This document shows, in pieces, positions 27,888-63,406 of a stretch of DNA of 64,000 nt (position 1 is its first letter; each line of letters opens with the position of its first letter). Origin of the DNA: Owenia fusiformis (taxonomy: Eukaryota > Annelida > Polychaeta > Sabellida > Oweniidae); the NCBI GenBank assembly GCA_903813345.2, contig CAIIXF020000010.1, positions 558,001 to 622,000 on the forward strand. The letters are read 5' to 3'. Made by a program: the position numbers and the translations under genes. The notes beneath the pieces are model-generated. The model saw only the letters and a list, made by a program, of their open reading frames with translations. It was not told the origin of the DNA and ran no database searches.

Positions 27888-30800
27888 ATGGATTTCAAAG
27901 ACACACGATTGTACAAAACGCTGACGGGGACAGATGTGGCTGAAATCAGCACCGTTATGCATGAGTTGATAAAAACAGGTCGAGATATCACTCTACAAGA
28001 CCCTATCACCGGAAGAGGATATCTACACGTAATAGCCGAACATTCCGATCGATTTAAAGACGCTCGTGCCATTCCTGTTGTCTACCAGTTGACATATGCA
28101 GGAATAGATATAAACCTACAAGACATCAACGGAGACACGGCCTTGCATATAGTTGTAAAGAATACGGGAGCACATGCCATAATGGTCGCTCTGATAAGGT
28201 AAAGACTATTAAATATATATAAACCTACAAGACATCAACGGAGACACGGCCTTGCATATCGTTGTAAAGAACATGGGAGCACATGCCATAATGGTCGCTC
28301 TGATAAGGTAGAAGACAATTAAATATATATCGTTGTAAAGAACACGGGACACATGCCATAATGGTCGCTCTGATAAGGTAGAAGACAATTAAATATATAT
28401 CGTTGTAAAGAACATGGGAGCACATGCCATAATGGTCGCTCTGATAAGGTAGAAGACAATTAAATATATATCGTTGTAAAGAACACGGGAGCACATGCCA
28501 TAATGGTCGCTCTGATAAGGTAGAAGACAATTAAATATATATCGTTGTAAAGAACACGGGAGCACATGCCATAATGGTCGCTCTGATAAGGTAGAAGACA
28601 ATTAAATATATATCGTTGTAAAGAACACGGGAGCACATGCCATAATGGTCGCTCTGATAAGGTAGAAGACAATTAAATATATATCGTTGTAAAGAACACG
28701 GGAGCACATGCCATAATGGTCGCTCTGATAAGGTAGAAGACAATTCAAAATATATATCGTTGTAAAGAACACTGGAGCACATGCCATAATGGTCGCTCTG
28801 ATAAGGTAGAAGACAATTAAATATATATCGTTGTAAAGAACACGGGACACATGCCATAATGGTCGCTCTGATAAGGTAGAAGACAATTAAATATATATCG
28901 TTGTAAAGAACATGGGAGCACATGCCATAATGGTCGCTCTGATAAGGTAGAAGACAATTCAAAATATATATCGTTGTAAAGAACACTGGAGCACATGCCA
29001 TAATGGTCGCTCTGATAAGGTAGAAGACAATTCAAAATATATATCGTTGTAAAGAACACTGGAGCACATGCCATAATGGTCGCTCTGATAAGGTAGAAGA
29101 CAATTCAAAATATATATCGTTGTAAAGAACACGGGAGCACATGCCATAATGGTCGCTCTGATAAGGTAGAAGACAATTCTATATATATCGTTGTAAAGAA
29201 CACGGGAGCACATGCCATAATGGTCGCTCTGATAAGGTAGAAGACAATTCAAAATATATCAAGGAAAAATATCGAATAATTCGTGCTACAAAATTGAATA
29301 CAAGTGGGATCTTTTTATCTAATTTTTCAAACTCGTTTCTCGATCTCTTTAATGCAATTTTAAACTTTTACGAAGCCACCCTAGCCTTGTTGTCACCATT
29401 TACTCCAAACACGATCCGTTCGTGTTCTATTATTGTATATTTTTTAATCTTTTAAAATAAGCAAATGTCATCATATATCATGATATTCTGATACGTTCAG
29501 ATCCGGGGCAGATATGGGGATATTAAACAAGAAAGGAGAGAGTCCACTCGACTGTATCAAGCACTACCAGCCTCTAGGACACGGTGAAATGGAAATGTGG
29601 CACAACGCTTATAAACCAGGTGAGGGAAATCAAAATTGTTAAACTAACCTTAACAACGTAGAGCCGACGTACCATTTAGAAATCACAGCTAGAACAGGTC
29701 AAGATAATTTGGTAATCTAAGAGAACAAAGAGTTCAATGGTATGAGATGCTACAAATATAATTCCATATATCTATATTCGAATCATAATTTTGGACGAAA
29801 ACTATAGATTACCGACAATATTCATCGAGAAGGTATTTTAATAAATACATCTAACAATTAAATCAGTATAATTTTTGCAGATTTTAAATTGCTTCGACTA
29901 TTTTTATGAAGTGTTTCTATTTATGATCATACAATTACTTCGATCTTTACAGGTCTGTACGACGCCGTAATGGGCGCGAACCCCGACGCGGAGCTCGTTG
30001 AACGCCTCCTTAAGTCCTGGTGCAGGGTGATCATATTCCGTAATAAGGAGTGGATCAATCTGGCTGAGCTTGTTCAACCAAGAACTGGAAATACAGAGAT
30101 CTCAAACCTACTCAAGAAATATCAATGGACAAATCAATACGTACATGCGACGCTAGGTGGCTCTGTTTATCACATGAAATATCTCCTCGCAAAAGGTAAA
30201 CAATTATTGTAGTCAAAAGATAAATCTAAGCAAGTTCAGTTTTCAACACTTACTATAAAGTAATATCTAATCAAATAAACCAACTTTTAATAATTATGAG
30301 GAAAACGAAACTAACTGTATTCACGAGAGCATCTAACTGCATTGCCCGCTTCATTCGGATTGACAATCATAGAATATATTTTATCAATCGACGACGTCAG
30401 TGGTGTCGCAAGATGCCCATTCATATATGTATTTTCCGATGTCCAATGGTAAGCAGAGACCGATGTCAGCGTTTATGATAACTCTTTGTGATAACTTTTA
30501 TCCATTTTGCTAACAATGTATGTTTTAGACACTGGTCCAAAAATCGACGTGAAGACTTTTGACGTGTCTCATTTCACGCCATTCCCGGAGTGTCTCCCTA
30601 TGCCACGCCCCCTTCTTGCCTCGTCCTGGGAGCAATTGAACTTTGACATCATTGAAGAACTAATGACATCTGGTGCCAATACTAGTGTGTTATACGGAAC
30701 TGCAGAGCCGGGAGAAAACTCAAAGAAACCTCTGATATTTCACGTAAAGTACTTTTAGTAACGTAAAACTTGACGCGTAAATTGTACATATGCCTAGGCC

Positions 30801-34583: not shown

Positions 34584-34899
34584 AGATTTAGTAATTTTTA
34601 CACAAGTAAAAAAGATGTCAAAACAATGTGACTTTCATGTTCAAGAGGAGAATAAGCCCAATGGACAAATCACATAGTTCGTTGCCATGACAACGTATAT
34701 TTATATATTGCCCACATACTGTTTTTGAATTATTGAAGAAACATGTTTAGTTTTTCACAAAAATATTTTATTAGTTGTATGTATATACAATTGCTTGTGT
34801 TGAGGTACAGCATCCTATCTATATACAAGAATTATTTTTACAAGAATACATAACTGTAATGTGAAGAACATATTTTTAAAGATTCTTTCTATGAAATTT

Positions 34900-34905
34900 A
34901 ATAAA
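34900..34905 (+). promoter_or_regulatory. Candidate polyadenylation signal of the ankyrin gene
   Basis: AATAAA lies 317 bases after the stop codon and about 200 bp before the end of the convergent chitin-deacetylase-like gene. Confidence 0.45.
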
Positions 34906-35107
34906 TGATCTGCTGATTTTATCATGATAGATTCTTGTGTCGAACCCTCGTTCAGCCTATCGGCTATTCCTCACATAAACATGCCGAACTTGAAAGAAGA
35001 GAGTAGCGGTGGCCAGAGCCTTGTCGCAAAATCAATTGTAAAGGCGCCTTCTGAGTGCGAGACTAGATGGATTTTGACTTTACGAGTGGCAAATTACTCC
35101 TATTCGT

Positions 35108-36340
35108 CTAAACATCATCAAAATTGTCTCTCTTAATAAGAACAACAGCTGAAATAAACATGATAATGTATTCCCAGATCCATAGTGTACTGAGGTCCCC
35201 CCAGCCTCCTCCCCAGTCATAATCCCCAACCTCCTTTGGGAGTTTGCAATCATCGGGGGTCTGCCTCTTACACGAACGCAACCACGGCTTGAAATTACGA
35301 ATTCTGCTAAGTGGTGTAGGATCCTGGATCCATTTGATCGCATCTGATGATGTCACGATGTAGACGTCATCAAGCTGGAGGAGTTTCTTGATAAACATAT
35401 CGAATCCATCGACTGTGTACTTGTAGCTGGAAAACCAGATGGCGTGCATGTTCAAGCCAAACGGTGCGCGGTTGGTTTCGTAATTGCGGAGAAAATTCAT
35501 CCAAAGGAACTCGTACATTTCCTCGGCATCTCCTGGACGATTAAGACATTTATCCACAAATGAACATTCAATTCCGCCCACGTCCATTGTACGTAAGACT
35601 GGAATTTCCCAGAACCCTGGGTAACGTTTATGTGGACAAGGAGGTATATTACAATTCTGGTCCTGTTCTTCCATACTGAAGTCCAGTGTGTACGGCCAAA
35701 GAGTTGGGTCCTCGAGATTGGCTGGGCCTCCGACAATCGTAGCATCATAGCTAAAATTGAATTTCTCAAGCATACTAAATTGGTTGTCCCCTCCAACAGC
35801 TAAGAATGGGCTTCGCATTCCTTGTATTTCTTTTATGGGCACCTTAGCGTCCCTCATTAAGTTGTTCTTCTGGCCCCAGATCTCAAATTCCCAATCCTCA
35901 TATTCAGCATTCGACCACCAATCTGTGGGGACCCTGTGCGTAATGCTATGGCTGGCAATTTCATGCCCGAGTGCCCACATGCGGTTGACCATACAATAAT
36001 CTGTGTAGTTATGGGACACAAACAACGTGATACTAATTGGGCAGCCATTTGGGTTCTTTCTACTTGGATGAAACAATTTCTTAAAATGACCCCATACTTG
36101 GGCATTTACAGCATCGTCAAATGTAAACATTACCATTTGTGGCGTCTCTTTACGGCTGAGTTTTCCAGGAATTTTAGTCCCTGCACAATTACAATATGGC
36201 AGTTTACAATTGTCCGAGTTACATAGATTTATCGGCTTCCAATCAGGTTCTTCCTCCTCAACTAGATCCTGGCACAGTAAAGGAACAGAGAGGACTATAA
36301 TTCCAAGGACGACTAATCCTGTTTGTCCAAACCTAGCCAT
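35108..36340 (-). CDS. Chitin-deacetylase-like polysaccharide deacetylase, membrane-anchored, intronless
   Basis: A single uninterrupted frame of 410 residues, starting MARFGQTGLVVLG. Family members remove N-acetyl groups from chitin or related glycans using one metal ion. Residues 1-24 are a signal peptide. A short Cys-rich stretch follows (LCNSDNCKLPYCNCAG, 39-54), then a NodB/CE4 fold. Motif 1 is TFDDA (73-77; D75 expected as catalytic base, D76 as metal ligand). Motif 2 is SHSITH (130-135; H131 and H135 as metal ligands). So the metal triad is intact and activity is plausible. Residues about 384-402 are strongly hydrophobic, followed by KRDNFDDV, indicating a C-terminal membrane anchor with a short cytoplasmic tail, which is unusual for secreted CDAs. 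There is no chitin-binding peritrophin or LDL-receptor domain, so it resembles the short CDA5-9-like groups. It converges on the ankyrin gene, 524 bp between stops. Substrate unknown. Confidence 0.9.
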   Translation of the reverse strand: MARFGQTGLVVLGIIVLSVPLLCQDLVEEEEPDWKPINLCNSDNCKLPYCNCAGTKIPGKLSRKETPQMVMFTFDDAVNAQVWGHFKKLFHPSRKNPNGCPISITLFVSHNYTDYCMVNRMWALGHEIASHSITHRVPTDWWSNAEYEDWEFEIWGQKNNLMRDAKVPIKEIQGMRSPFLAVGGDNQFSMLEKFNFSYDATIVGGPANLEDPTLWPYTLDFSMEEQDQNCNIPPCPHKRYPGFWEIPVLRTMDVGGIECSFVDKCLNRPGDAEEMYEFLWMNFLRNYETNRAPFGLNMHAIWFSSYKYTVDGFDMFIKKLLQLDDVYIVTSSDAIKWIQDPTPLSRIRNFKPWLRSCKRQTPDDCKLPKEVGDYDWGGGWGDLSTLWIWEYIIMFISAVVLIKRDNFDDV

Positions 36341-36590
36341 ATTTGGCTGAAATGGTAATGACGCAATATGTATATCTGCTTTGTTTTCTTACTGAATATT
36401 ACTGAGTCACTTTGCAGTGTTGATGCTAATGTTAATGTAAAAGGTTTAGGCCAGAAAGCTATTAATGCCAATCAAGTTAAAGAAAGAGCCTCGGGTGAAA
36501 ATACAATAAACAGCTCGCTAATTACACACTGTTCTCTGACTGTACGGCATTTTACCCGATTGCATTTGCGGAAACAAGCTTGTCTTGACC

Positions 36591-37594: not shown

Positions 37595-37659
37595 AATCAA
37601 TAGAAAACAACTTAGTTCACAAGTTCAGGACCCATTGTTTTTAAAAATATACGTTTAAC

Positions 37660-39261
37660 CAGGCCCGTAAGACACTTTTCTCCAAGGGGGGAGCGGTTTT
37701 TAGCTTACTAAAGAGAATATAAAATTGTCATTTTTTTGCCGCGTACATCAAATCGCGTAAGACAGAGGGGGGGGGGGTCAGTTACTCCCTATATTGGTTT
37801 GGAATTAACAAATGCATGCAACGTCCAATTGTTTTGTGGGGGGTGGGAAGAGTGGTCCACTCCCCCTAGAAAATTTTACAGTTTTGAGATGCTATTTGGT
37901 GCGTTCTGGGCACTTTCAAAGTGTGAGTTTCTAAGAAGTACGCCACCACCACGGGAATAAGAGTTGAGTGAATACAAAACCGAGCATATATGGGGGTCTG
38001 GGGGTTCTCCCCCAGGAAAATTTTGAAATTTGGTTGTATTTGGAGCGAATTTGCAACCATCTGGTACGCCTGTGCGTTATGAGTCAATAAGAAAAATGTG
38101 ATTTTTTTTCAAATTCTTTTGGGGGTGTCAAAGAGGATGAGAGGGTGAAGTGGGGTGGGGTGCCAGTAGGGGAGCAAGGGGTTGTCCCCCAGAAACATTG
38201 ACCATATCAAGGTGCTTTTTGATGATGTCTGGGCACTTAAAAATGTCTGAGACAATACATAAAATTCAGAATATTTTCTTTTGTTTTGTGGGGGATGTGA
38301 GGGGTGGCTAACTCTCCTAGAAAATTTTACAATTTAAAGATGATATTTGGTGCTTCTTGGCACTTTTAAAGTGTATTAGTCAATAAAAACATTGAAAAAC
38401 AATCACAATTTTTTTCAAATTTGGGGGGTGTCAAAGGGGGGAGGGGTGCCAGAGGGGTAGGTGGGGCTGGGGTGCCAGAGGGGGAGCAAGTGTTTCTCCC
38501 CCATATCAAAATTTACAATAGCAAGGTGCTATTCGATGAAGTTTGGGCACTTTAAAAGTGTCTGTGCCTAAAAGTGCCTATTTCCCAAGAAAATTTTACA
38601 ATTTTAAGATGCTATTTGGTGCTTTCTGGGCACTTTCAAAGGGTATGAGTCAATAAAAAAAATTGAAAAATCTCTTTTTTTTGGGGGGGGTGTTAAGGGA
38701 GGGGGGCTGCCAGAGGGGGAGGGGGAGAAGGAGTGGGGATGCCAGAGGGCGAGTGAGTGTTAGTCTTCCAGAATCATTAACTTTATCAAGGAGCTATTTG
38801 ATGATGTCTGGGCAATTTAAAAGTGTCTGAGACAATACATAAAACAAATTCACAACTTTTTTTTGGGGGGGGGGTCAAGGGGGGGCGCCAGAGGGGGGGT
38901 TATGCAAGTGCAAGATGCAAGAGGGGGAGTAAGTCCCCCAGAAACACGAACTATATCAAGGAGCTATTTGATGATATCTGGGCACTTTAAAAGTGTCTGA
39001 GACAAAACTCTAAAATAAATTTAAAACTTTTCCATTGTTTTGTGGGGGGTGTGAGGGGTAGCCAATACCCCTAGAAAATTTTACAATTTTAAGATGCTAT
39101 TTGGGGCTTTCTGGGTACTTTCAAAGTGTATGAGTCAATGAAAAGAAATTACAAAAAAATATTTTTCAAAGAAAAAAAATTTTTCAAATTTTTTTTTTCA
39201 AATTTATTTTGGGGGTGACAAAGGGGGGTGCGGTCGCACCCCCCCCCATCTGACGGCCCTG
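37660..39261. mobile_element. 1.6-kb non-autonomous element with internal G-rich tandem repeats
   Basis: Starts CAGGCCCGTAAGACAC and ends CATCTGACGGCCCTG, flanked by TTAAC on both sides (37655-37659, 39262-39266). The inside is several diverged copies of a unit of some 350 bp containing GGGGGTGTCAAAG, GCTATTTGGTGCTTTCTGGG, CACTTTCAAAGTGTATGAGT and CCCCCAGAAACATT. No transposase. A second copy lies at 50038-51255. The 5-bp target duplication and CAGGSCCGT ends suggest a hAT-related or similar cut-and-paste group; this assignment is inference. Confidence 0.85.
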
Positions 39262-44554: not shown

Positions 44555-46112
44555 TTCAAATTTCAATATAAGGATGTGTGAAATATTTTCTGTGATAGAT
44601 GAACTTATGAGAGAATATGAATACTGTAAGATTCTGTAACATTAGATACTGTAACATTCTCATCTCCTTTCATTGTAATGAATAGTTATCACTCAACAAA
44701 ACATCATCACAAATAAAATTGAAGTCAACAAATTTTCTGTAGTTTAAGACACAGTATTGTGTACCAGAAAAAGAAGACCCTACAAAATGTAAGGAAGCGA
44801 TCAGACCCAAAACTTTTATCTACGAACATCTACAAGCTTTATCAATTCAAAGACTTATGACTTCAGAAAATTGAACATTTTTTCCTAACTTTTCTAGTAC
44901 ATACATGTATACAAAATGTCACAAAACATTTTAAGTGTCTTAACATCAAAATTACAGATGTTCAAATGATAAAATAAAATAATAAAAATAATTCATGACC
45001 CAACGCAGTCAGGAGAATTCTGTTTCGATTCTTTTCACCTTTGTTTAAACAGAATGACCTCATGAAAAGAGAATACATATTAGCCTATCTCAAACAGAAA
45101 ATGAAAAGAACCGTTAAAAATTCAAATGTAGATCTTAGTTTTGACTGCTATATGTATTTATGCTTTTAAACTCTGAATAAAGAACTATATACTATAGTAG
45201 AAGACTAAAGAAAACACACACAAGAAATTTCAATTTATGACCTCAGTTATTCAATTTTAAGAAGTTTGGTTAGATATAGACACTTCCTTCTGACTGTGTT
45301 GTGACAAATAGCATGATTCTCAAACAATAGTCCTAAGATTCAATAGTTCATAGATAAGATATTTAGTTTCAGTTCTTAGAGTTGGACCTTCATATCTATT
45401 CAATCCATATATGGTAAACTGTACCAAGGATAAATGATGATGCTTGTGTCTAAAGCCGACAGTTCAAAACAGGAAGTGAAATTAATATTTTACAAATGTT
45501 TTTTATTATTATGATTTACTGCAAGTCAAGATAACTTCTCACATAACTGAATAATAAAAAGATCACATCAGAATGCATTCCTTGTAATGTTATATTTAGT
45601 CTTCTATAGTATATAAAATGCTTTATTTATATAAATCTAGCGTTGAAGTTTCTCACTTCAAGTTCTTTGCTGCCTCTTCACTTGTACGCCCTCCTAGCTT
45701 GGCGCGGAGCAGAGTCTTCAATCAATCACATCTTTCAGGAAGTCTTTTTTCATCCATCATAATCTTCGCATCTCCGAAGAGTCCCAAGAAGTCATGGAAA
45801 CCGATGTTTTTCTCGTGTGACAATGAATCACAATTTATTCCATAAATTAGATCATGGAAACTTGTTTACATCGAAGTAAAAATCAATATTCAATTCTTTT
45901 TCTCTTTTGTCCACATACAGTTGTTTACGACTAGAAATATACCACTATAGGTAGGTCAGGTTAAATCCAGTTCAGGTAAATCAATAAAAAAATTCTGTTT
46001 TAGTCGGCTTAGATAGACTTATTGAATGTTTAAAATCCATATAGAGATGTGTTGAGTAGTGACTTGTTGTTTAAGTCATGTTGCATTTGTTACCCATGTC
46101 TGCTTGTGTTAT

Positions 46113-49100
46113 TTATCTTGCTGCTAGGGTCATGGTTGCAAGAGCGCCTAAGCCAATCGCAGTAAACATCAGACCTTTCCAAACTTTGTTTTCAACATCA
46201 TTCTCATCAGGGAAGTATTCAGAGAAAGCATCCTGGAAATATATTAATCAACAGAATATAGAATTTGAGTTTAATCACTTTACTGTATATAGAAAAATCA
46301 AAGGAATTTAGAATTTGATCAACTTTTTTAGAATTTGGGTTCGACCATTTCACCAAACATTTCCTTCTCTTGCAGTTATTTCTATGTGTGAAATAAACAT
46401 TTGATCTTTTGAACATGTAAGGAATGTAAGTAAGTGAAAAACCAATCAACATTTTAAAATTTCATTAAATGATTGGAGGGGTCACACCATAACAAAATTA
46501 ACTTTTTCATGACTATTAATATTGGACACCATCCTTAGTGGCACTACAGATTACAGTAAAACGTATCTAATGTGAACATCACCCAGACTAATCTAAATTG
46601 TTGAGAATAGCAGGTGTTCATATTTCAAGGTTTCTATGACAAGTCAATGGGCGATAACAAAATTAGGACTGAGAGAAAGTTTTAATATCGAAGAGTGAAG
46701 AGGTGTTTTATCAAAAAAACATGAATGGTTTAACCATAACATATTTGAAAGGTGAGCCATGAATGGTGAGCCACTGATGAAAAACAGTGTAATTAATAGT
46801 TTTAGAGAATACACCTAATGAAAGAAATATTTTTTGAAATATTTGGCACTCCTTCAGATTTTTGTTCAGACACAACTGAGGAGGAGGATGATGAAAATCA
46901 ATGAAAGGCAGACAAATGTGAATTGTGACCTGGCATTTTATGTGTATCATGTGATTCAAAAGGAAATCAATAGCTTGAGATATTTCTGGCAATGATGAAA
47001 TTGCACATCCATTATCCTCTAGTTGCCAAAACAGTACTGCTATATATATTTATACAATGAACTTTATTCTCAGGCAACTTTCAAGACTATTGAGGTCTAA
47101 AATCAATAATCCTTTCAAATACATCTAGTTGCCAAACAATAGGCTTTATAGACTGATAAATTGTACAAATAAAGGGCTGGGAGATTTTCAATTTTACTTC
47201 AGTGCATTCTGAATCATAAACAATCAGTTGGTCTTGAATGGGGTCAAAATTAAGCATCTAGAGAACGATTCATATTTTGGACTTTGAAATTCTTATAGAT
47301 TAAAAGTAGATAACTAACAACAAGAGGTGATAAACATATGGTACTTCATACTAACTACCATTGAACAACCATATGTCATCATTAAAAAAATGTAGACACA
47401 TTCACAAATTATTTGAGTTCTTGAATGAAAATTGCATCATCAGTAAAATCATCATTTTGTCCACTGATTAAGAGTTCATTTCAGTACAATCAAACTTACA
47501 TTCAGTATGTTCAAACAAACATGACGTAACTGCTTAGATAAAATTGTCATAAATGAAGTGATTGATGGTTAAGTTTACATAAATAGGTAATTGAAATTTA
47601 TAAATAAAGTTCACCAAAAACAAATGATTTGGACATTAAAAATAGAAAATGTTTGTTAGTTCAACACAATAAAACTTTCATGAACCCCCAAGACACGCCT
47701 AATGAGCAAATGATCACAATGTATATATGCGTGTGACAAGTCACAGACTCTACTGTAATACTGTATTTTGTTTCACATTTAAGATACAGCATGGGGCTGA
47801 GCATGTCTAAGAGTTTCTCATAGATTAACTTTTGGTTTCAACAAACAATTTTCTGGATAACTGTTCTAAAATCACTTTTTGTAAGGGGACTTTTTGGATC
47901 ACAAACTGCTTCATGTTAACCAAGAATGCTCATTTAAGTCTGAACAATCTTCTTGGTAGTAGATACCGCAGTTTTTAATATTTCCATAGACTGTTATTTA
48001 CCATGGGCTTTCAACAGATATTTACTAAATGGAGAAAATAAATTGTTTGTAATTTACAGGGTATTAATCTTGATCTTATTCAGCAAAAGAATTTTTAAGA
48101 AACTGTTCACAATAACCTAACCTGGTTGGTTACCATAGCAAACTAAGTATAGAGTTACAGGCAGCTACTTAAACTACTCAGTCAGAATATTCTAGGAATG
48201 ATGAATTTTTGCCAACATTCTTGTCTAAATCTAATCTGGACCAGGATGCTGTCTGGATGGTAATGCTGTGATTCAAAACACTAAACATTCAGCAATAAGC
48301 ATGTGTCTTGTTTCATTCCTTGTTTCCTGAATGCATATACACCAACACTAAGGATAGTTGTTTTCTAGCACCAAGACAAAACCCTGGTCATATCTCCGCC
48401 ATCACATATCACAATATACACTTAGATGTAGAAGCGTTTCCTGTATATGTAGCCTATTACCTGGATCATTTTGTAGGTAACAGAATGTTGCATTTCCTCT
48501 TTTTGTTGCATAAATCATCACAATCATAAAACAAACTACTTGTGTCTGGATAAAAGATAAAAGCTATACATACCCATCCCCCATTTTCATTGATCCACTT
48601 TCCCAGCCGCACTGCGACATATCGACCCATGAATTCAGAAATTTTTGGCGTAAACTCGGTCATATCATTTTCAGTACAATGTTTCGCTATTCTTGCACCA
48701 AATGTATACACAGTAACAACTCTTCCCCAGTTAACTTGGCCATCCTCGAAGATTTCATCTGCAACATTGACAAATGTTTTGTAACCATTTTCTTGTGAAA
48801 TGTCAAGTTTTTTCACCATTGCTTTGAATACAATGTCATGTTTTTGAGAAAGTTGGTCAACAGTTCTCCTCAGGGTTTGACAATGTCTATCTGGAGCTTT
48901 TGTTTCTTTTCTTTGTGCCACATATGATACAATGTCTTGGGCTAGGAGGCCGGCTTCTTTCTGGATTTCTTCGGGAGGAATATCCTCTTCATTCGTTTGT
49001 GTTCCAGCTGATTTTGATGAAATTTTTACAAACCCATTTGTTGCGGCCATTTTGTTGTTGATGTTGTTCTTCTCCGGGCTGAAACACTGTTCCTTTACCA

Positions 49101-49155
49101 CTGATTTCAACGCCTTAGACTCTGATGCTTTAATCGGGACATTTTCAATTTCCAT
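46113..49155 (-). CDS. MCL1-like pro-survival Bcl-2 family protein, two exons, 233 aa
   Basis: Exons 48574-49155 and 46113-46232 join in phase 0 (donor GTATGT, acceptor TTCCAG). The product should sit on the outer mitochondrial membrane and bind BH3 helices of pro-apoptotic proteins. A Ser/Glu/Lys-rich N-terminus (1-60) is followed by a BH3-like QTLRRTVDQLSQKHD (93-107), the BH1 signature VNWGRVVTVYTFGARIAKH (141-159), and BH2 WINENGGW|DAFSEYF (188-201). The hydrophobic C-terminal anchor is about residues 214-231. The intron splits BH2 right after the Trp, as in many animal Bcl-2 genes. LRR..QRNHETAF-like and MVKKLDI stretches make MCL1 the closest family member I know. The first ATG is used; a second in-frame ATG at residue 36 could also serve. 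Intron (2.3 kb) carries a pogo-like MITE. Head to head with the BH3-motif gene at 51812. Confidence 0.93.
46554..46712. mobile_element. pogo/Tigger-type MITE in the MCL1-like intron
   Basis: Begins CAGTAAAACGTATCTAATG after TA and ends near GAGGTGTTTTATC. The internal GCAGGTGTTCATATTTCAAGG phrase is shared with the MITE at 54817 and with the duplicated segment at 62892, so these are one family. Confidence 0.45.
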
Positions 49156-50037
49156 AATCACATACCCCTCTTGATGATCCCAAGGAGGAGACAGAATCCT
49201 AGTTCCTGTTTCTATTACAAATCCGAGATGAAAAGAAAGAATCGATGAGAAACCAAATTTTCTCGCGTCACTGTTTGTCTGTTCACTTCGGGTAAATAAC
49301 TGAGTTCCGAATTAACCCGAACGATAATATCGATATCCGGAGATTCCAAATATGGAATAATGAACTTTGAACCCTCGGCAAGTGACATCACTTCTAAAAA
49401 TAGCACATTCGAGTAGTCTCGGGAAAATCCGTCAATTTTACGAAGGAATGATGTCATTTTGCTGAACTGTGATTGGTTGTAAATATGGAAATCCCAAGTG
49501 CTACTCGGCGATGTACGTAATGAAAATATTTGATTCATTCTCATCTCAGTTTGTCAATTAGTCCAAGCGATTGAAACTACAACCAAAACTTATTGTATAT
49601 ATTATATTACTTTTAAATTAGTTTTCATATTAGTTTCGCCAAGAGATTTTCGGATGAGGTCGTGATTTGAAGAGATCGATATCAGAAGAAAACAGGAAGA
49701 AATATTGAATTGAAAGTTATCAGGATCGATTTGACTACAGTTCAATCACAAAAAGTAGGTACACAATAATTACAATTACATGTAGCTGTGTACAATATTT
49801 ATTGTAATTTACATTATGTACATATGAAAAATACTAGATTTTGTATGTAACTTGTCAACCCGGTGTGAAAGAAATTATGGTCCCCTGGGGATTATGGTCC
49901 CCTTTCTAAACGGCCCTTATTGGCCCTGATTGTGTATAAGATAATAAGAGAAAGGGTTGTATTTAGGTCACCATATAAATCAATGGAGAGTCGGACCATA
50001 ATTTGAGAGGACCTCCTACCCTTTTACACCGGGCTTG

Positions 50038-51255
50038 CAGGCCCGTAAGACACTTTTCTCCAAGGGTGGTGCGGATTTTAGCTTCCTAAAGAGAATATAA
50101 AATTGTCAATTTTTTTACCGCGTAAATCAAATCGCGTAAGACAGAGGGGGGGGGTCAGTTACTCCCTATATTGGTTTGGAATTAGCAAATGCAACATCCA
50201 AACGTTCCAATTGTTTTGTGGGGGGTATGAGTGGTCCACTCCCCCTAGAAAATTTTACGGTTTTGAGATGCTATTTGGTGCTTCCTGTGCACTTTCGAGG
50301 TGTAAGTTTCTAAGTTAGAAGTACGCCACCACCACAAGAATAAGAGATGAGTGAATAAAAAACCAAGCATTCAGGGGGGTCTGGGGGTTCTCCCCCAGGA
50401 AAATTTTGAAATTTGCTTGTATTTGGAGCGAATTTGGAACCATCTGGTACGCCTGTGCGTTATGAGTCAATAAGAAAAATGTGAATTTTTTTTCAAATTC
50501 TTTTGGGGTTGTCAAAGAGGATGAAGTTGGGTGGGGTGCCAGTAGGGGAGCAAGGGATGTCCCCCAGAAACATTGACCATATCAAGGTGCTATTTGATGA
50601 TGTCTGAGCACTTAAAAAATGTCTGAGACAATACATGAAATACAGAATATTTATTTTGTTTTGTGGGGGATGTGAGGGGTAGCTAACTCTCCTAGAAAAT
50701 TTTACAATTTAAAGATGATATTTGGTGCTTCTGGGCACTTTTAAAGGTATTAGTCAATAAAAACATTGAAAAACAATCACAATTTTTTCAAATTTTGGGG
50801 GTGTCAAAGAGGGGAGGGGGGAGAGGAGTGCCAGAGGGGGAGGTGGGGCTGGGGTGCCAGAGGGGGAGCAAGTGTTTGTCCCCCATATCAAAACATAGAA
50901 AATCACATTTTTTTGGGGGGAGGGTCAAGAGGGGGGGGGGGGGCAGAGGGGGGGGGGTTATGCAAGTGCAAGATGCAAGAGGGGGAGCAAGTCCCCCAGA
51001 AACACCAACTATATAAAAGAGCTATTTGATGATGTCTGGGTACTTTAAAAGTGTCTGAGACAAAACACTAAAATAAATTTAGAAATTTTCCATTGTTTTG
51101 TGGGGGGTGTGAGGGGTGGCCAATACCCCTAGAAAATTTTACAATTTTAAGATGCTATTTGGTGCTTTCTTTCAATTTTTTTTTTCAAATTTATTTTGGT
51201 GGGTAACAAAGGGGGGTGCGGTCGCACCCATCGCACCCCCCATCTGACGGCCCTG
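50038..51255. mobile_element. 1.2-kb second copy of the G-rich non-autonomous element
   Basis: Ends CAGGCCCGTAAGACAC and CATCTGACGGCCCTG as at 37660-39261. It is flanked by GCTTG on both sides (50033-50037, 51256-51260). It is shorter because it holds fewer internal repeat units. The first 700 bp are nearly collinear with the other copy, so divergence is modest. Short open frames such as 50795-51016 are products of G-runs, not genes. Confidence 0.87.
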
Positions 51256-51410
51256 GCTTGTCAACTACACATGACGACTGTTCAAAACACTTTGATATCA
51301 CAGGTGTGGTTCATCCATAGTAAAACTCTATAGACACCAGGGCTAATCGATATGGGTGATATAAAGTTCATCATTGCCTTATCAATATGGACACATACAC
51401 TGTAGGTGTG

Positions 51411-51659
51411 CAGGCCCATAGTCAGGATTTACCAAGGGGCGCGGTTTTACCAAGGGGAGTTTTTGCCAAGGGGGGAGCTTTTCATCATCATCATCATCAT
51501 TTGGATACACGATTGATCAATTTTACTGATCATTATATCACAGGCTTTTGACAGTTTTGGCAAAAAATCATGCCAAATGTGCTCATAATGGTGAAAGACT
51601 GCATGATTTTGAAGGAATTTCTGGCTTGGGGGAGGAAGCGGCGACTCCCTACGGGCCTG
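51411..51659. mobile_element. 249-bp MITE with CAGGCCC ends
   Basis: Starts CAGGCCCATAGTCAGGATTT and ends CTCCCTACGGGCCTG. It is flanked by GTGTG on both sides (51406-51410, 51660-51664). It contains a CAT trinucleotide run near 51482-51500. End sequence is close to the 132-bp MITE at 23931. It lies about 150 bp upstream of the BH3-motif exon. Confidence 0.75.
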
Positions 51660-51811
51660 GTGTGACACTTCATTACTTTACATTTGTCACATACATATAC
51701 ATCTGAGGTTTTCTGATCCAACTCTCCAGTTCAGGGTAGCGCAGGTCAAAACCATTCCATGATTGTCTCAAAAACATTTTTCACACACTATACACATTTA
51801 TTTGCAGAACC

Positions 51812-54549: not shown

Positions 54550-57500
54550 CTAGGAATCCTCAGAGAAATTAGTCCGCAATGGGACTATATTTTGTGTTAT
54601 ATCCCTGAACTGTTCAGACTTGAGTGCATTGGCTGCATGTGTGAGTTGTAGTGCTGCATCAGGATGGGAGCTGCCAGGAAGGCAGGTACATTCTCGCTCC
54701 AACATCAGGGCCACTGACTTTAGTAAGGCTGTGAAACCATATGATAAAGCTGCTCTACGTAGTCTATTCAGCTCCTGAAATATGCACTTTGATTAATTGT
54801 GTTAATTGTGCATGTACAGTAAAACCTGTATAATCTCAACACAACTGTAACCACACAAAAGTGTTCAGATGAGCAGGTGTTCAGGTTTCAAGTTTCTTAA
54901 TATTTGAGTCAATGGGAGTTAACAGAATAGGGATTTAATTGGAAAAGTTCACATCGAGTGTTTTCAGATTAAAAACCTGTTCAGATATCACAGGTTTTGC
55001 TGTGATTGCGTATATTGGCTAGAATCAACAGTTTGTACATGTATGATATCTAAAAGTTACTTTCAGAATTTCTAAGCTTGGATTATATTTTTTCTATCTC
55101 CTGTAAAGTGCTATGAAGTTTCAAGTTTGGATAATAGGATGATTCTAGTCTGTTTAGGTATCATCAGTATCATTATGTTTCAAAGGTTAGTCATACCTTG
55201 TAAAAGTGTTGTTGTTTCTCTGGCAGCTTCCTGGCATGTCTGAGCATTTTCTGTATATCAGCCTAGAATATAACCACAGTATGATAATCAGGTTGCAAAT
55301 CTGACAATTAAAACATTTCATGCAGATAAGTAAGTGCTGTTTTTGTGTGTGGGAGGCCACAGTACATGTAGTTCATATTACTCTGAATCCCATCAACTGG
55401 CCACACTACCCTCTTACTTTGACAGAGGATTTGACAGTATTTTCGCTGACAAAATCTAAATAATCTCAAAAGCCACTTTTATGGCCTTTCGTTGAATTTA
55501 AATATGAAATGAATGTAAACTATGTGTTCTAAAGGCAGAAAATATAGTGGCATGATTATGAAATGTGTAAGTATGCCAGAAAACAAACTTTGTACTTAGT
55601 AATTTTTGGTGATTGCCAAAATCAGAGAGAATTAGAATACACACTATACCTGTACACCAGAGGCTTTTAACCAGACCACACAGTTATTTGCATAGCTCCT
55701 CTTCTCCTTGGGCCTCACAGGGAATGGGGACTTGTTGTCATCTTCCCCATAGGGAGGCTCAGGGAAGTCAGTAGCTGGTGCTAACATATCCATGTTTCCT
55801 AGCCAAGGAAGGCAGTATTTACCTACAAGGAAATGGGATTTAGATCTGTAATAATCTGTTGATCCCTATAGAATCGTATGAATTCAAGTCAATCTAAGCC
55901 GAAATCCTTCAATTGCTGCATCGTGATTCATTGTTGTGTTACAAAAACCTAACTTTTCTACCAATTCATTGTCATGGTTAGGGTCAACATTTTTTCCAGA
56001 GCTGACCATCAAATTCCAACTCCTGTTGATCAATTAAAAACAGTTACAGATATGAAGCCCCCAACAATGTTTCTTGTTTGACTTGAGTTGAGGGAAAATT
56101 AATATTTGTGCCAGCATGGAGATTTATAAGCCTCACCGATGAACGATTTTCATGGTCATTTTATCTTTCAAGTTATAATAAGCTAAGGTCAACTGGGACC
56201 AGCTGACTGGGACTCTATAAGAGATGCCTTTAACAATTCTGAATTCCTCTTGCCAAGTATAAATTGAATGCATATGTCTGATAACAGTAATATTGTGAGG
56301 ATTATAGGAAGTATTTTGTACCTGGTTCATATATAGTCAACATCAGATTAGATTTCTTCCTATTGTCAGCAAATGAGTAGAGCATTCCATACCAATCTTC
56401 CCTGAAAACATGTAAATACAAAACAATGAACCCTGCCTATCAGTAGGTTTGCACATCAATAGCAAATGAGTAGAGCATTCCATACCAATCTTCCCTGAAA
56501 ACATGTAAATACAAAACAATGAACCCTGCCTATCAGTAGGTTTGCACATCAATAGCAAATGAGTAGAGCATTCCATACCAATCTTCCCTGAAAACATGTA
56601 AATACAATACAATACAATACACATTGCCTATCAGTAGGTTTGCACATCAACAGCAAAAGAGTAGAGCATTCCATACCAATCTTCCCTGAAAACATGTAAA
56701 TACAATACAATACACCTTGCCTATCAGTAGGTTTGCACATCAACAGCAAATGAGTAGAGCATTCCATACCAATCTTCCCTGAAAACATGTAAATACAATA
56801 CAATACACCTTGCCTATCAGTAGGTTTGCACATCAACAGCAAAAGAGTAGAGCATTCCATACCAATCTTCCCTGAAAACATGTAAATACAATACAATACA
56901 CCTTGCCTATCAGTAGGTTTGCACATCAACAGCAAAAGAGTAGAGCATTCCATACCAATCTTCCCTGAAAACATGTAAATACAATACAATACACCTTGCC
57001 TATCAGTTGGTTTGCACATCAACAGCAAAAGAGTAGAGCATTCCATACCAATCTTACCTGAAAACATGTAAATACAATACAATACACCTTGCCTATCAGT
57101 AGGTTTGCACATCAACAGCAAATGAGTAGAGCATTCCATACCAATCTTCCCTGAAAACATGTAAATACGAGGGGTGATCAATAAGTAATTGACGCTTTTT
57201 TACACAGATACTTTTTATAGACCAATCAATCCCTTTAATTTTCCCACCAGTTATACGTCATTCAATTATCTATCAATTCTGAAGATTTGAAGACAAAATA
57301 TATATTATATATGTTGATATATCCTTATTTCCATGAAGAAGATAAATGTTACCTGGGACCGACGTAACGTCACATATTCAGTTTTTAGCCAGTTTGGCAA
57401 ATTTTTTGCTGACTGGTAACACATAAACAGAAAGTATTGTGATGTCAGAGAGTTGTATGGAAGGGGTTTGCAGGTCAATTTGAGTAAGCATTGTGGAAGA

Positions 57501-60500
57501 AAGGGTTGGTGAGAGAAGGAAACACCCTACTCCATATGGACAATGCACCTGCCCACAGATCTCAAAGTGTTCAGAAAACAATATCCCTGGACCTCAAAAT
57601 TGAGCCCATGGCCAATGCACCATATTGTCCAGATCTGCTCACATGTGACTTATTTATTTCTATACTACTTATTTCTATAGAGAAAGAACGCAGGTTTATT
57701 GCCATTGATGAAATAAAACAACCCGTGCAACTGGATCTTGCTACCATGTCAGAGAATGGATCAATCTTGAGTTCAGAGGATGAGGAATTGTGTACATGTA
57801 GCACTTGATGGAATCTATGTAGAGGGCCCTGTGGAATGAATGTGGCATGAATACCACATAGTGATGATAAAATGTTCAAAATCAACTATGGCATAACAAA
57901 ATGGGGTAATTCATGACCATAATGGTTTGTTTTGTTCAGCCTGGATTCAACTGCATTGCATGTTAAACAAGCTAAAATAGCTTCAGAATGTTTGACGTCA
58001 TGTTGGTCCCGGGATACCTAGAGATCCTTCACGGAAATAAAGATATATCAAAATATATTACATGTTTTGTTTTCAAATCTTCAGAGTTGATAGATAATTG
58101 AATGATCTATCACTGGTAAGACAAGGCATTAACATGACAAAATGTCACCACCTAAAACAATTTGGTCAATTTAAAGCAAGTTGGAAAATACCTTTTGACC
58201 TTGAGAAGGTCATTGAAGGTCAAAGGTCAAATCTAAAGTCAGATTTGAACTTCTGAGAACTTGTAAAGTCAAATTTGAACTTCTGAAAAGATGTAGATGA
58301 TTTTGAAAAAAAAATTTGGTCAATTTGAAGCAAGTTGAAAACAGACCTTTTTGACTTTTTTTGACCTTGAGAAGGTCATTAAAGGTCAAATGTCAAATCT
58401 AAAGTCAGATTTGAATTTCTGAGAACATGTAGATGATTTTGAAAAAAAAATTAGTCAATTTGAAGCAAGTTGAAAAAGACCTTTTTGACCTTTTTTGACC
58501 TTGAGAAGGTCATTGAAGGTCAAATGTCAAATCTAAAGTCATATTTGAATTTCTGAGAACATGTAGATGATTTTGAAAAAAAAATTTAGTCAATTTGAAG
58601 CAAGATGAAAAAATACCTTTTTGACATTGGGAAGGTCATTGAAGGTCAAATGTCAAATCTTAAGTCAAATCTTAAGTCAGATTTGAATTTCTGAGAACAT
58701 GTAGATGATTTTGAAAAAAAAATTTAGTCAATTTGAAGCAAGTTGAAAAAAGACCTTTTTGACCTTTTTTGACTTTGGGAAGGTCATTGAAGGTCAAATG
58801 TCAAATCTAAAGTCAGATTTGAATTTCTGAGAACATGTGGATGATTTTGAAAAAAAAATTTAGTCAATTTGAAGCAAGTTGAAAAAAGACCTTTTTGACC
58901 TTTTTTGACTTTGAGAAGGTCATTGAAGGTCAAATGTCAAATCTTAAGTCAAATCTAAAGTCAGATTTGAATTTCTGAGAACACGTAGATGATTTTGAAA
59001 TTTTTTTTAGTCAATTTGAAGCAAGTTGAAAACAGACCTTTTTGACCTTTTTTGACCTTGAGAAGGTCAAACGTCAAATCTTAAGTCAGATTTGAATTTC
59101 TGAGAACACGTAGATGATTTTGAAAATTTTTTTTAGTCAATTTGAAGCAAGTTGAAAACATACCTTTTTGACCTTTTTTGACCTTTAGAAGGTCATTGAA
59201 GGTCAAATGTCAAATCTAAAGTCAGATTTGAAGGTCAAATGTCAAATCTAAAGTCAGATTTGAATTTCTGAGAACATGTAGATGATTTTGAAAAAAAATT
59301 TAGTCAATGTGAAGCAAGTTGAAAAAAGACCTTTTTGACCTTGAGAAGGTCATTGAAGGTCAAATGTCAAATCTAAAGTCAGATTTGAACTTCTGAGAAC
59401 ATGTAGATGATTTAGAAAAAAATTGAAGTCAGTCTAAACAGTATTTGTTAAGTTATAGGAAGTTGTAAGAAATTGTTACAGACGCCGGACGCCAACCTCC
59501 AACCACCAACCGCCAACCACCAACCGCCGTCGCAAAAAAACGGAGACCATAACAATATGTCACCACTTTTGGTGGTGACATAAAAATCGAAGGGATTGGT
59601 CTATAAAAAGCATCTGTGTAAAAAAGCATCCATTACTTATTGATCACCCCTCGTACAATACAATGCACCCTGCCCATCAGTAGGTTTACAATAAAATGAT
59701 ACTTTGAAAATCCTCTTTTGAGGAAGACATGTTCCCATATTGCATATTTCTTAAAAGTAAGAATAATATAGGAGTAATGCCAATTGAATTATTAGGCAGA
59801 GTCATTCTTATTTACATATATGTATATATCAAACAAACTTTATTATATTGGAGAGTTATAGTTATCCATCAAGAGTATAGCATAGCATACCCTATCTGTG
59901 TTAAGGCAATCATACTGTGCACTTTGAATATAGCATAACATACCCTATCTGTGTTAAGGCAATCATACTGTGCACTTTGAATATAACATAACATACCCTA
60001 TCTGTGTTAAGGCAATCATACTGTGCACTTTGAATATAGCATAACATAACCTTTCTGTGTTAAGGCAATCATACTGTGCACTTTGAATATAACATAACAT
60101 ACCCTATCTGTGTTAAGGCAATCATACTGTGCACTTTGAATATAGCATAACATACCCTATCTGTGTTAAGGCAATCATACTGTGCACTTTGAATATAGCA
60201 TAACATACCCTATCTGTGTTAAGGCAATCATACTGTGCACTTTGAATATAGCATAACATACCCTATCTGTGTTAAGGCAATCATACTGTGCACTTTGAGA
60301 GCACCATGAAGCAGTACTGTGAAAGATGGGGTCTTGAATTCATCAGTTTCTTCCTCATCTTCTTTAATGTCCTTGTTTTCTTTCTCTCCATTTGGTTGAC
60401 TTTCATCTTCTAAAATGCATGCAAATTATGAACTACCATATTATGAATTAGGCAAATCATTAGATGTCAAATAAACTGGGCACAAAATGAAACAGAGTAA

Positions 60501-63406
60501 ATTAACAAATTATACAACTTCTTAAATACTTTGTCATTCTTTCCTAATATTGAGAGGCCATTGACATCAAACATTGGCATGACTAAAATCACAACAGCTA
60601 AATCAATTCCAAATCAATGTATTCCTAGTGATTACCTTTAGTGGGTGGATTGGGGAGAACCAAATGCCTCGATAAACCTGCGGGGCTTGCAACATCTTGG
60701 ATGTCAACAAAGCCTAATATTTGGAGATCATTTGAAACACTCTTCTTAAGAGATTGCCTGAAATGTTAAAGTATTCAACAATAACCAACATTACACTTCA
60801 TTGTACTACATTGCTACTTTGGCAGAAATGATGCTCCCCAAGGTAATATTGCCCCCTCGTATAAATTTGTGACCATTATTTGCCTTGATTAAGTATCAGG
60901 AACTATGTAAAGGTTTTAAGTGTTATTATCATATTGTTTTTTTAATTGTTTGTTTGTACACGTTGATCTTTTTATAATTGCATGAATGTATCTCCTTTTT
61001 ATAAAGGGCAATAAATATATACATACATACACATGACTGACCAAAGATTCTGAAGACGTGAATAGGTACATCCGTATTACTATTTGAAGTACTGTATATT
61101 GATATTCAAATGTATGTGAGAATTTCTATCAAGAACTTACATTTTGTAATCTTCTGGTGCTGGGAACAATTGAACTTTACATTTAAGGTTCCCACAATTC
61201 AACACTGCATTAAATGGACTGAAATATTTCTCTGCAAGCTGAGAAAATAGCTGTTGTATTGATGTTATATTCAGACTGCCTTCTGGTACGAACACACCTC
61301 CCTTGCCTCCATTAAGGTCTATGAGTCTATTATAGAGAGGCAATGAGGCTGAAACACTTGGTTCCTCCTGTGATCCAACACAGCAGATGTGTAGTTTGGA
61401 TGGGAAGGGGAAAGGCAGGGGGAATTTAGTGTCTCTGTATTGAATATGGTGTTTTAGAGAGTCACTCCCAGTACCAGTGCTGCCATCTGTTATCAAAACA
61501 ATCTGAAACAGTAATGAATTAAAATAACCTCTTTCCCAGGAGAATGGAGAGAATGGTAGGATAACTGACAATGTTTGTTTTGACAATTTTATTTTGTAGC
61601 CAAAATCAAACCAGTAACAAGGCATTAACATGCATAACGTCACAACCTACCATTTGTTTCAAAATTGAACAGCTATAACAAAAATTGGAATCTGAATAAA
61701 AGTAGGCTAAATTATGTGCACACTTAAATGTATTTCAAGCTACCTTTAAACACCCTATATGAAGACTGTGCTATATAAAAAAAAGCAGTGTGGATATCAT
61801 GTGCATACGGTGCCGATATTAAAGGTCATTTTTTGATTTGAATTCATGATATTTCACAATCTCAGGCATGCTGGGTACTCAATTATATTCATACATGTGT
61901 ACAGGATCCCTAATAAAAAGGAAATTGTGAAAATAGGTGTGTACTTTATTCTATACTGACATCAAGCGATAATATTCTCTCCAAAGCAAATGATTTGAAA
62001 ACAATAAACAAAAATGTGCTACCTCTAAGCAAGCTGTGGGGGTATTCATAAAGTGACGATATCGACACTGCTTGTTTAGAGGTAGCACATATCGGATCAA
62101 TGTTTTTTAAAAAGTTTATGACTTTCAAAATGCAAAAACAATTTATATCAATGGGTCATCTCTATCACCAATACTGAATGAAGGCTGTCAATGGTGTATC
62201 AAAGCAGAATTTCAAATTATTTGCTATGGAGAAAGCATGAATGCTAAGTGTGTCGTTAAAGAATAAAGGACAAAACAATAGACAAAATTTCTCTTTTATT
62301 AGGTATCCTCTATAAATGGGTGAATATAATCGAGGACCCAATATGCCTTAGTTAATGAAATATCATAACTTCAAATTCAAAAATGACCATTAATATCCAC
62401 ACTGTGTGCACGCAATATCTGCACCGCCTGTTTTTGTATAGCACAGTCTGTATAGGGTGTTAAAACAAAATCTTGGAACAGTAACAAAAAAATGAATGAC
62501 CCATATGAACATTGAACGAACCACAACCTTGAGTTACATGTAAAATGTGGTAACAGATAAATCCTTTGGAATAAAGTAATTTAACCCTGCTGTGTTACAG
62601 ATACCATAGGTTGTTTCTTTACCTGACAAGGTGCATTTGTACCCCATTCCTCAGTAACCACTTGTAAGACACCTTGTAAGCCATTGCATACATTAGTTTT
62701 GTCATAGTCATCTAACTTGGTCAAGGCAGATTTAATACTGTCAACATCTCTGGTGAAATTTACAACTTGCTCCCATTGAGAAGAAAATATCATCTGAAAT
62801 CAAAAAGTGCATTTTGGGCTACAGTCTCTGGAAATCTTAGATAAAGATGAACTCTTAATAAGTCAAAATGGCAATGGATCTGGTAGAAAGTGTTGGGAAT
62901 AGCAGGTATTCACATTTCAAGGACTTACGTCTTTTTAACATGGGACTCATTGGGAATAGCAGGTATTCACATTTCAAGGACTTAGGAGGTCTTTTTAACA
63001 TGGGACTCAATCTCACTTTTAATATACTGTACTTCCATAGAACTATTGAAATGTTACAGCTTTTATATTCATGAATTTTCAGAAACTCGTGAAAAGCACA
63101 AATAAACTTAACACGCAAAATTACTGTGAGTACAGTATGACACCATCACTTCAAATATTCTTCATATAAAGTAATTGGCATGAAAAGTTCCAAGATTCTC
63201 CACTCTACAATGTCAGTATCAGTGAGTATTATTCAATGACTTACCAAAGATATAAACTCTAACTTAGAATGAGTGGTGATATGATCGAGAAGTGTATTGA
63301 TGCCTTGGATTGCCAGATGGCGCCTCTGGTACTCTTCATTTGTGTCAGGAATGTTTACTGGGCGTGTCATTGACAAAGAGACATCTAGCAATATTATTGT
63401 AGGCAT
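54550..63406 (-). CDS. INTS14: Integrator complex subunit 14 (VWA domain), nine exons, 502 aa
   Basis: INTS14 is a nuclear subunit of Integrator, which cleaves snRNA 3' ends and attenuates paused transcription; it pairs with INTS10 and INTS13. Coding exons in order: 63245-63406, 62623-62793, 61141-61502, 60636-60757, 60262-60409, 56322-56401, 55650-55822, 55197-55262, 54550-54774. All are GT..AG, phases match, total 503 codons (human about 518 aa). The start MPTIILLDVSLSMTRPV has the MIDAS DxSxS motif of a VWA domain (D8, S10, S12). Later landmarks are KLDDYDKT, VLITDGS, FPLPFPFPSKL, RLIDLN, LSRHLVLP, GMLYS, PYGEDDNKSPFP, KRSYA, RHARKLPEK and LERECTCLP. Exon 1 follows a TTTTAG acceptor at 63421-63422, so a 5' UTR exon lies upstream. 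Intron 5 (3.9 kb) holds two arrays made from its own splice sites plus a mariner relic; introns 1, 2, 3 and 8 hold other repeats. Confidence 0.97.
54817..55003. mobile_element. pogo/Tigger-type MITE in INTS14 intron 8
   Basis: Starts CAGTAAAACCTGTATAATCT after TA, and the right end is the complement of CAGCAAAACCTGTG. The internal phrase GCAGGTGTTCAGGTTTCAAG links it to 46554-46712 and 62892-62999. Confidence 0.55.
56369..57167 (-). repeat. About 93-bp array built from the 5' end and splice acceptor of INTS14 exon 6
   Basis: About nine units. Each, read on the minus strand, contains intronic sequence, a GTTTTCAG acceptor and the first 34 bases of exon 6 (GGAAGATTGGTATGGAATGC and on). Only the copy at lowest coordinates (acceptor at 56402) runs into the complete exon. 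The unit nearest 57055 carries a changed acceptor flank (TTACCTG on plus). Because 93 is a multiple of three, a long artefactual open frame exists on the minus strand. A further partial unit lies beyond the mariner at 59654-59690. Confidence 0.93.
57168..59653 (+). mobile_element. Degenerate mariner-type transposon with long TIRs, interrupted by a nested element
   Basis: Ends CGAGGGGTGATCAATAAGTA are inverted at both sides and flanked by TA. The inverted repeats extend about 170 bp (GACCAATC, CATTCAATTATCTATCAA and GAAGATTTGAAGACAAAA landmarks), the right one being split by the nested insertion at about 58118-59582. On the plus strand, 57491-57808 retains a transposase fragment: LLHMDNAPAHRS (second catalytic Asp region) and PYCPDLLTCDLF (third Asp region) of a DD34D mariner transposase. 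The upstream half of the transposase is missing, and the remainder departs from the family after CDLF, so it is inactive. It inserted into the exon 6-derived array of INTS14 intron 5, so it is younger than that array. Confidence 0.85.
58118..59582. repeat. Nested element of about 140-bp tandem units inside the mariner
   Basis: Roughly nine diverged units with GACCTTGAGAAGGTCATTGA, TCAAATCTAAAGTCAGATTT, GAGAACATGTAGATGATTTT and an A-run. TGTCACCACC occurs at 58143-58152, and at the other end a perfect hairpin, TGTCACCAC..GTGGTGACA, lies at 59558-59580, suggesting inverted termini. A C/A-rich stretch with CAACCGCCAACCACCAACCG is next to that hairpin. A related fragment (AAGGCATTAACATG..GTCACAACC) is at about 61619-61650. 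Family not identified. Confidence 0.75.
59866..60296 (-). repeat. 53-bp array built from the 3' end and splice donor of INTS14 exon 5
   Basis: About eight units. On the minus strand each has 35 bases of exon 5 (AAAGTGCACAGTATGATTGC then CTTAACACAGATAGG), a GTATGTTATG donor and a few intronic bases. The copy at highest coordinates is the genuine exon end (60262). One unit has a changed donor context (ACATAACCTTT on plus near 60048). 53 is not a multiple of three, so use of a distal donor would normally shift frame. Confidence 0.93.
60840..61030 (+). mobile_element. Possible 3' tail of a non-LTR retrotransposon in INTS14 intron 3
   Basis: The phrase GTATCTCCTTTTTATAAAGG, GCAATAAA and then a short (TACA)n run resembles 3' ends of CR1/L2/RTE-like LINEs, which end in microsatellites. 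No coding part. Confidence 0.35.
61750..62459. mobile_element. 710-bp foldback element with TTAA target site in INTS14 intron 2
   Basis: Arms of about 190 bp are inverted copies: ACACCCTATATGAAGACTGT with complement at 62440-62459, plus GGTCATTTTTTGATTTGAA and TTATATTCATACATGTG landmarks. TTAA flanks both ends. A smaller inner palindrome (TGCTACCTCTAAGCAAGC and complement) is at about 62016-62090. No coding content. Confidence 0.75.
62892..62999. repeat. 58-bp tandem duplication in INTS14 intron 1
   Basis: GGGAATAGCAGGTATTCACA followed by TTTCAAGGACTTA occurs twice, 58 bp apart, each with TTTTTAACATGGGACTCA following. Similar phrases occur in the pogo-like MITEs at 46554 and 54817, so it is probably a MITE remnant that duplicated. 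Confidence 0.8.

Follow-up and report, generated by a model that had tools for sequence, protein, structure and literature searches.

Tandem arrays over exon-intron junctions in the annelid Owenia fusiformis resemble the 'mirage' minisatellites of amphioxus

The closest described relatives of the repeats considered here are the amphioxus 'mirages', tandem copies of exon-intron boundaries that are reported, in the parts of the two papers available to us, from the genes for Adh3, troponin C, the globins BflGb6 and BflGb9, and PGBD5 (PMC3087553, PMC3902484). According to the same parts, mirage units are 10 to 160 bp long and cover donors or acceptors, with splice signals in many copies; the arrays are unstable in length and leave regular splicing undisturbed, and the mechanism behind them is described as unclear. 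In the potato RdRp gene, one duplication of an intron end together with an exon start is described as having given rise to a new intron (PMC4974935), and in the earthworm metallothionein gene, minisatellite monomers of at least 25 nt lie in the first intron and the copies of a duplicated exon 4 are missing from the final transcript (PMC12783039), again as far as the accessible text of these reports goes. In the literature searched, which was available in part, we saw no genome-wide test of tandem arrays at splice junctions.

The window analysed here is a stretch of 64,000 nucleotides from the annelid Owenia fusiformis (assembly GCA_903813345.2, contig CAIIXF020000010.1, positions 558,001 to 622,000). 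It holds three tandem arrays over splice junctions, which we name A, B, and C. Array A (28103..29260, forward strand, two overlapping Tandem Repeats Finder [TRF] rows) lies across the donor of exon 1 in a gene with ankyrin repeats. Exon 1 (27888..28198, forward strand) is an open frame starting with the ATG at 27888 and ending at a donor read from the sequence as AAG/GTAAAG, the slash marking the junction, and its 3' end and donor lie within the first copy of the array as CTGATAAG/gtaaag. Exon 2 (29501..29619, forward strand) is predicted with a score of 13.4 and the acceptor ttcag/ATCCGG, and the start of the spliced product matches the Pfam Ank_2 family (E 9e-7). The array is built from an initial longer duplication (109 bp, 2.1 copies) followed by 71 bp copies, each of which, judged by eye, holds the donor with 48 nt on its exonic and about 23 nt on its intronic side. 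The GT is present in 15 of the 16 counted copies, the sixteenth being probably a false match.

Arrays B and C belong to the INTS14 gene (54550..63406, reverse strand), whose nine exons (63245-63406, 62623-62793, 61141-61502, 60636-60757, 60262-60409, 56322-56401, 55650-55822, 55197-55262, and 54550-54774, in the order of exons 1 to 9) were set by hand, with canonical sites at all internal exons and an unbroken spliced frame. The product of exons 5 to 9 matches the solved INTS14 protein (6sn1_B) with a phmmer E value of 3e-81, and the alignment is gapless across the junction of exons 5 and 6. Array C (59876..60298, reverse strand, eight TRF copies of 53 bp) spans the donor of exon 5 (60262, ATAGG/gtatgt), and array B (56367..57168, reverse strand, TRF copies of 93 bp) spans the acceptor of exon 6 (56401, ttttcag/GGAAG), so that a single intron has an array at either end. 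By periodicity, the unit of array C has 34 exonic and 19 intronic nt and that of array B 31 exonic and 62 intronic nt, with up to 38 and 35 exonic nt, respectively, when read by eye. The GT is found in seven of the eight copies of array C and the AG in all nine copies of array B. A search of the 498 Mb genome found no second locus for array A, B, or C among the best-scoring candidates.

Array B is interrupted by a mariner-like transposon (57168..59653) with TA dinucleotides on both sides (57166-57167 and 59654-59655) and inverted ends of 62 nt that are 95% complementary. Its piece at 57488-57805 weakly resembles the DDE_3 family (E 2e-4, under the Pfam cut-off), and another element, which carries a 136 bp satellite, appears to be nested within the transposon. 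The insertion came later than the array. Beyond the transposon, a short segment (59656..59690, reverse strand) is, by comparison with the unit by eye, either a remnant of the array or ancestral intron.

As an independent sample, 200 kb of another chromosome were picked blind (C1:1000001-1200000; coordinates in the C1 block are given relative to its start). This block contains genes for mTOR, an SLC12 transporter, an ABC transporter, and others, and five more arrays over splice junctions. For three of them, a solved protein aligns over the junction, with the exon ends of mTOR and SLC12 trimmed by hand: the mTOR acceptor array (45327-45621), the first mTOR donor array (50756-51703), which is interrupted by an insert, and the SLC12 acceptor array (154000-154793). 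The second mTOR donor array (69796-73172, about 10 exonic nt) and the ABC-transporter (ABCG) acceptor array (100437-100619) are based on the sequence and predicted exons. The mTOR gene (37119-85638) alone bears three junction-spanning arrays. Two further candidates found by eye, at 129012 and 178115, are without an adjoining exon and were left out of the counts. As a separate observation, the insert in the mTOR donor array (50976-51539, or L008:976-1539) resembles, by eye, the element nested in the transposon of array B, with which it has a common end and a satellite rich in AAGGTCA.

The three arrays in two unrelated genes that an earlier note on this DNA had described are thus borne out by TRF, the spliced frames, and the INTS14 alignment, and the recurrence that it pointed to holds, with five more arrays over junctions, spread over three other genes, in the C1 block. 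For the exonic part of the unit, given there as 34 to 46 bases, we obtain 31 (B) and 34 nt (C) by periodicity, up to 35 and 38 nt by eye, and 48 nt by eye for A.

Across all eight arrays, the breakpoints are scattered. Measured by periodicity, the unit takes in 31 (B), 34 (C), 8 (mTOR acceptor), 46 (mTOR donor 1), and 76 (SLC12) exonic nt, with 62, 19, 48, 8, and 56 intronic nt in the same order; by eye, the exonic share is about 48 nt in A, about 10 nt in mTOR donor 2, and about 16 nt in ABCG. The exonic share thus has a spread of about 8 to 76 nt, the intronic share one of 8 to about 63 nt, and in the five of the eight arrays that were measured by periodicity, no breakpoint falls at a splice dinucleotide or at a constant offset from it. 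Four of the arrays lie over donors and four over acceptors.

The splice dinucleotides are intact in 99 of the 104 counted copies of the eight arrays, the genic copies included (an earlier and poorer count gave 61 of 62), which would fit copies of recent origin. In A, B, and C, the reading frame is whole when splicing goes through the copy beside the exon body and broken when it goes through an outer copy. A frame continued beyond the proper junction in A or C meets stop codons, and so does starting at any of the eight outer acceptors of B (8/8). The use of an outer copy would therefore be harmful, and the arrays would have to be tolerated through splicing to the copy beside the exon body. Spliced by hand in this way, INTS14 and mTOR contain no extra residues compared with the solved proteins, and this continuity, read from the DNA, is compatible with normal splicing.

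The placement of the arrays was compared with chance in 264 kb in total, which is 0.05% of the genome. The set holds TRF arrays with units of at least 25 bp, where 38 rows became 37 arrays once the split mTOR array was joined; eight of the 37 span a junction, and the other 29 cover no recognised junction. Whether an array spans a junction was decided from homology or by eye, and the null junctions come from prediction, with transposon-like or implausible exons struck by hand, and several of the filters below were chosen post hoc, with the data already seen. In its last round, the exon-level predictor was exact for seven of the nine INTS14 exons, starting exon 1 late and choosing the wrong copy for exon 5. 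An intron-aware gene HMM trained on the 264 kb drifted to genes covering large parts of the blocks and was dropped.

Under uniform placement, 2.31 spans are expected against the eight observed (p 0.0011), and 1.96 against 5 of 27 in the C1 block alone (p 0.036). The starting window alone gives 3 of 10 arrays against 0.35 (p 0.004), calculated from the 40 junctions that were predicted within three recognised genes, but the pattern had first been noticed in this very set. Placement within eight gene spans, two of which (a fucosidase-like gene and an ankyrin gene of C1) were identified by eye only, gives 8 of 24 against 4.52 (p 0.045), and 5 of 19 against 3.46 in the C1 block (p 0.23). Barring exon-breaking placements from these spans sets the expectation at 3.45 for both samples (p 0.011) and at 2.50 against 5 for the C1 block (p 0.080). 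Excluding arrays with units found elsewhere gives 8 of 16 where 2.22 are expected (p 0.0003); the C1 block then has 5 of 12 against 1.6 to 2.6 (p 0.009 to 0.05), with 1.56 and p 0.0089 at the low end. The arrays at 56367 and 62893 were treated as dispersed in the gene-span run, having two matches each, and as local in the units-elsewhere run; the second match of the array at 56367 is presumably the piece of this array left on the far side of the transposon. Capping the unit length at 140 bp results in p 0.002 for the C1 block and smaller values for both samples.

Other versions leave less of an excess. A first pass, in which the randomisation took in every predicted junction, false ones too, gave 7 of 35 at an exon cut-off of 14, against 2.4 (p 0.007) or, near genes, 3.5 (p 0.047); in the C1 block, four of the 26 arrays spanned a junction, with 1.9 (p 0.11) or, near genes, 2.8 (p 0.29) expected. 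When the cut-off is raised to 20, three spans stand against 1.5 (p 0.19) or 2.55 near genes (p 0.48), and the two spans of the C1 block stand against 1.2 or, near genes, 2.0, where the excess is gone. Correcting for missed exons by a factor of 1.3 or 1.6 raises the gene-restricted p to 0.17-0.37, and to 0.46-0.67 in the C1 block, where five spans against 4.4 to 5.2 means that most of the excess is removed. The strength of the excess therefore depends on the filter, and its direction is usually that of an excess; any excess at junctions is 1.5- to 3-fold and unproven.

The claim that arrays would rarely straddle junctions by chance does not stand for these genes. With 103 predicted junctions in 42 kb of mTOR, a unit of 54 to 73 bp covers a junction in 11 to 15% of placements, and the gene-restricted expectation for the C1 block is 2.5 to 3.5 against the five observed (p 0.08 to 0.23). 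Here and in the two samples together (3.5 and 4.5 against eight), the numbers expected within genes have the same order of magnitude as the observed ones. Straddling is to be expected fairly often because arrays are abundant and some genes are dense in junctions, and it is not rare by chance here. In a further 40 kb of a third sample (C2), which enters no p-value, about 10 array clusters were counted by eye, none at a recognised exon end; the absence of genes there was judged from predicted exons.

The sampled sequences contain other repeats and genes that were noted in passing. In the window, a 51 bp unit (17 codons) is repeated seven times at 23032-23387 with copies 99% alike and is open in three frames (141 to 152 aa), one of which gave only matches under the cut-offs when searched against Pfam. 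Two large minisatellites, each in a region of strong GC skew, lie at 7754-9519 (19 bp, 94 copies, GC skew about -0.48) and 12862-15738 (38 bp, 76 copies, GC skew -0.25 to -0.28), and two similar stretches with tracts rich in G and similar open frames (about 37712-38752 and 50082-51029) likely represent two copies of a dispersed repeat. On the reverse strand, a long open frame at 35108-36388 resembles polysaccharide deacetylase just under the Pfam cut-off, and a Bcl-2 family gene is found at 48466-49311 (E 2e-30). In C2 (C2:10000001-10010000, L023), 145 bp tandem arrays at 1-4567 and 8307-9852 have a unit that looks by eye like an inverted tRNA, the tRNA-like part being GGTTCGATTCC on the opposite strand; ARAGORN found no tRNA in these arrays.

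We consider the arrays to be, more probably than not, ordinary minisatellites of the mirage type, that is, chance tandem duplications over an exon end that are tolerated, and ordinary minisatellite formation with tolerance is the most economical account. Minisatellites start from local tandem duplications wherever they arise, and here such a duplication would by chance take in an exon end and the adjoining piece of intron; slippage or unequal exchange would then multiply the copies. The copy beside the exon body would keep an exon end and its splice site intact, and the surplus copies would stay intronic. We infer the chemistry of the duplication, the tolerance by splicing, and the lack of an effect on the transcript alike. 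The scattered breakpoints and the abundance of arrays in the C2 block, which lacks recognised genes, argue against a duplication directed by splicing. Against chance with tolerance, an excess of 1.5- to 3-fold persists in many versions of the test, and tolerance alone cannot yield an excess over the density of junctions, since intronic duplications are likewise tolerated. The spans also look clustered, as mTOR alone has three and a single intron of INTS14 has two. Less probable is the reading that minisatellites in this genome arise preferentially at exon-intron borders, with a bias of two- to three-fold, as in amphioxus; some property of exon ends would then seed tandem duplication in minisatellite-rich animals, and nucleosome edges, nascent-RNA hybrids, or co-transcriptional breaks would be candidates for such a property.

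The earlier note suggested that a mechanism targeted to junctions may be at work, for example through lariat or nascent-RNA structures or microhomology at splice motifs. In such a process, for which R-loops would be a further candidate, exon-intron borders would be copied preferentially. The uniform null (8 of 37, p 0.001; C1 block p 0.036) and the like phenomenon in several amphioxus genes, as described in the accessible parts of the reports (PMC3087553, PMC3902484), speak for such a process, but the excess weakens under the gene-restricted nulls in the C1 block and is level with expectation there at the strictest first-pass exon cut-off. A lariat or splice-motif model furthermore predicts breakpoints at the GT, at the AG, or at a fixed offset, which none of the five measured arrays has; the shares are scattered (exonic about 8 to 76 nt, intronic 8 to about 63 nt), donors and acceptors are hit equally, and the C2 block without recognised genes is, by eye, at least as rich in arrays. 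A donor motif served as a genome-wide proxy. Pairs of CAGGTAAGT spaced 40 to 70 nt apart number 233 in the genome compared with 95 for the reversed motif, with big arrays dominating both counts; merged by eye into loci, there are at least 26 against 20, a lower bound because matches with an A after the motif are only partly included, among 4020 and 4453 single sites, respectively (Fisher p 0.24). The test is weak because donors are degenerate here: CAGGTAAGT does not occur in the collapsed 248 kb, and only 4 of 12 occurrences of AGGTATGT and 1 of 6 of AGGTAAGT lie at predicted donors. As probably just a minority of these motifs mark true donors, the proxy can neither establish nor dismiss a bias of two-fold. 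Taken together, we regard a junction-directed process as unlikely.

Selection could instead retain the arrays, with the extra donors and acceptors tuning splicing or serving as a nursery of introns and exons. The intact dinucleotides in nearly all copies would fit this, and intron gain from such duplications has been proposed (PMC3087553) and reported (PMC4974935) in the text available to us. The copies are, however, so alike that intact splice sites may reflect youth, with TRF matches between copies of 97% (A), 96% (B), 97% (C), 92% (mTOR acceptor), 91% (mTOR donor 2), 98% (SLC12), and 91% (ABCG), that is, 91 to 98% in seven arrays, and, in the split array of mTOR donor 1, 92 and 83% for its two parts. 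The stops met on outer-copy use in A, B, and C and the whole INTS14 and mTOR proteins, with no residues added at the array junctions, also count against selection, which we likewise hold to be improbable. An assembly artefact with collapsed or stuttering repeats, to which tandem arrays are prone, is very improbable, given that individual copies bear their own substitutions and indels, that a TA-flanked transposon lies within B and a further insert within the split mTOR donor array, and that the assembly is long-range (C1 measures 62 Mb).

If the excess is true, exon ends would be hot spots where DNA is duplicated locally, and this would bear on intron length, cryptic splicing, and intron gain. 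Even under chance and tolerance, the arrays place many intact-looking splice sites beside the true ones in genes as conserved as mTOR and INTS14, and so offer a natural experiment on the choice of the right copy by the spliceosome. They are also a trap for gene predictors, as the exon finder overran into a second copy of array C in an array-shortened sequence.

On the DNA sequence of one assembly, the arrays are anatomically of the mirage type. They share with the amphioxus mirages, as far as the available text describes these, the tandem unit over an exon-intron boundary and the kept splice signals, and the unit length of 53 to 132 bp lies inside the amphioxus range. The host genes differ, being INTS14, mTOR, SLC12, ABC-transporter, and ankyrin genes here. 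Amphioxus also has a higher G+C content than this genome, for which we find 35 to 36% in the parts read. Searches for COX1, the GFP family, and mollusc haemocyanin gave no match, and the GFP and haemocyanin searches gave none in the control genomes either. The potato RdRp case resembles the arrays in that the duplicated segment consists of an intron end and an exon start, and differs, in what the accessible text reports, in that no new intron or exon is required here and in that there are many copies instead of one. The earthworm minisatellites are intragenic too, and are reported, in the text available, in the first intron and not over a junction. A placement null was tried for the arrays here, unlike for the amphioxus mirages in the accessible parts of the reports. 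The kind of array is thus already known from amphioxus, and what is added is that it recurs in five more genes, together with a placement test on a small sample, whose outcome is compatible with a modest bias towards junctions.
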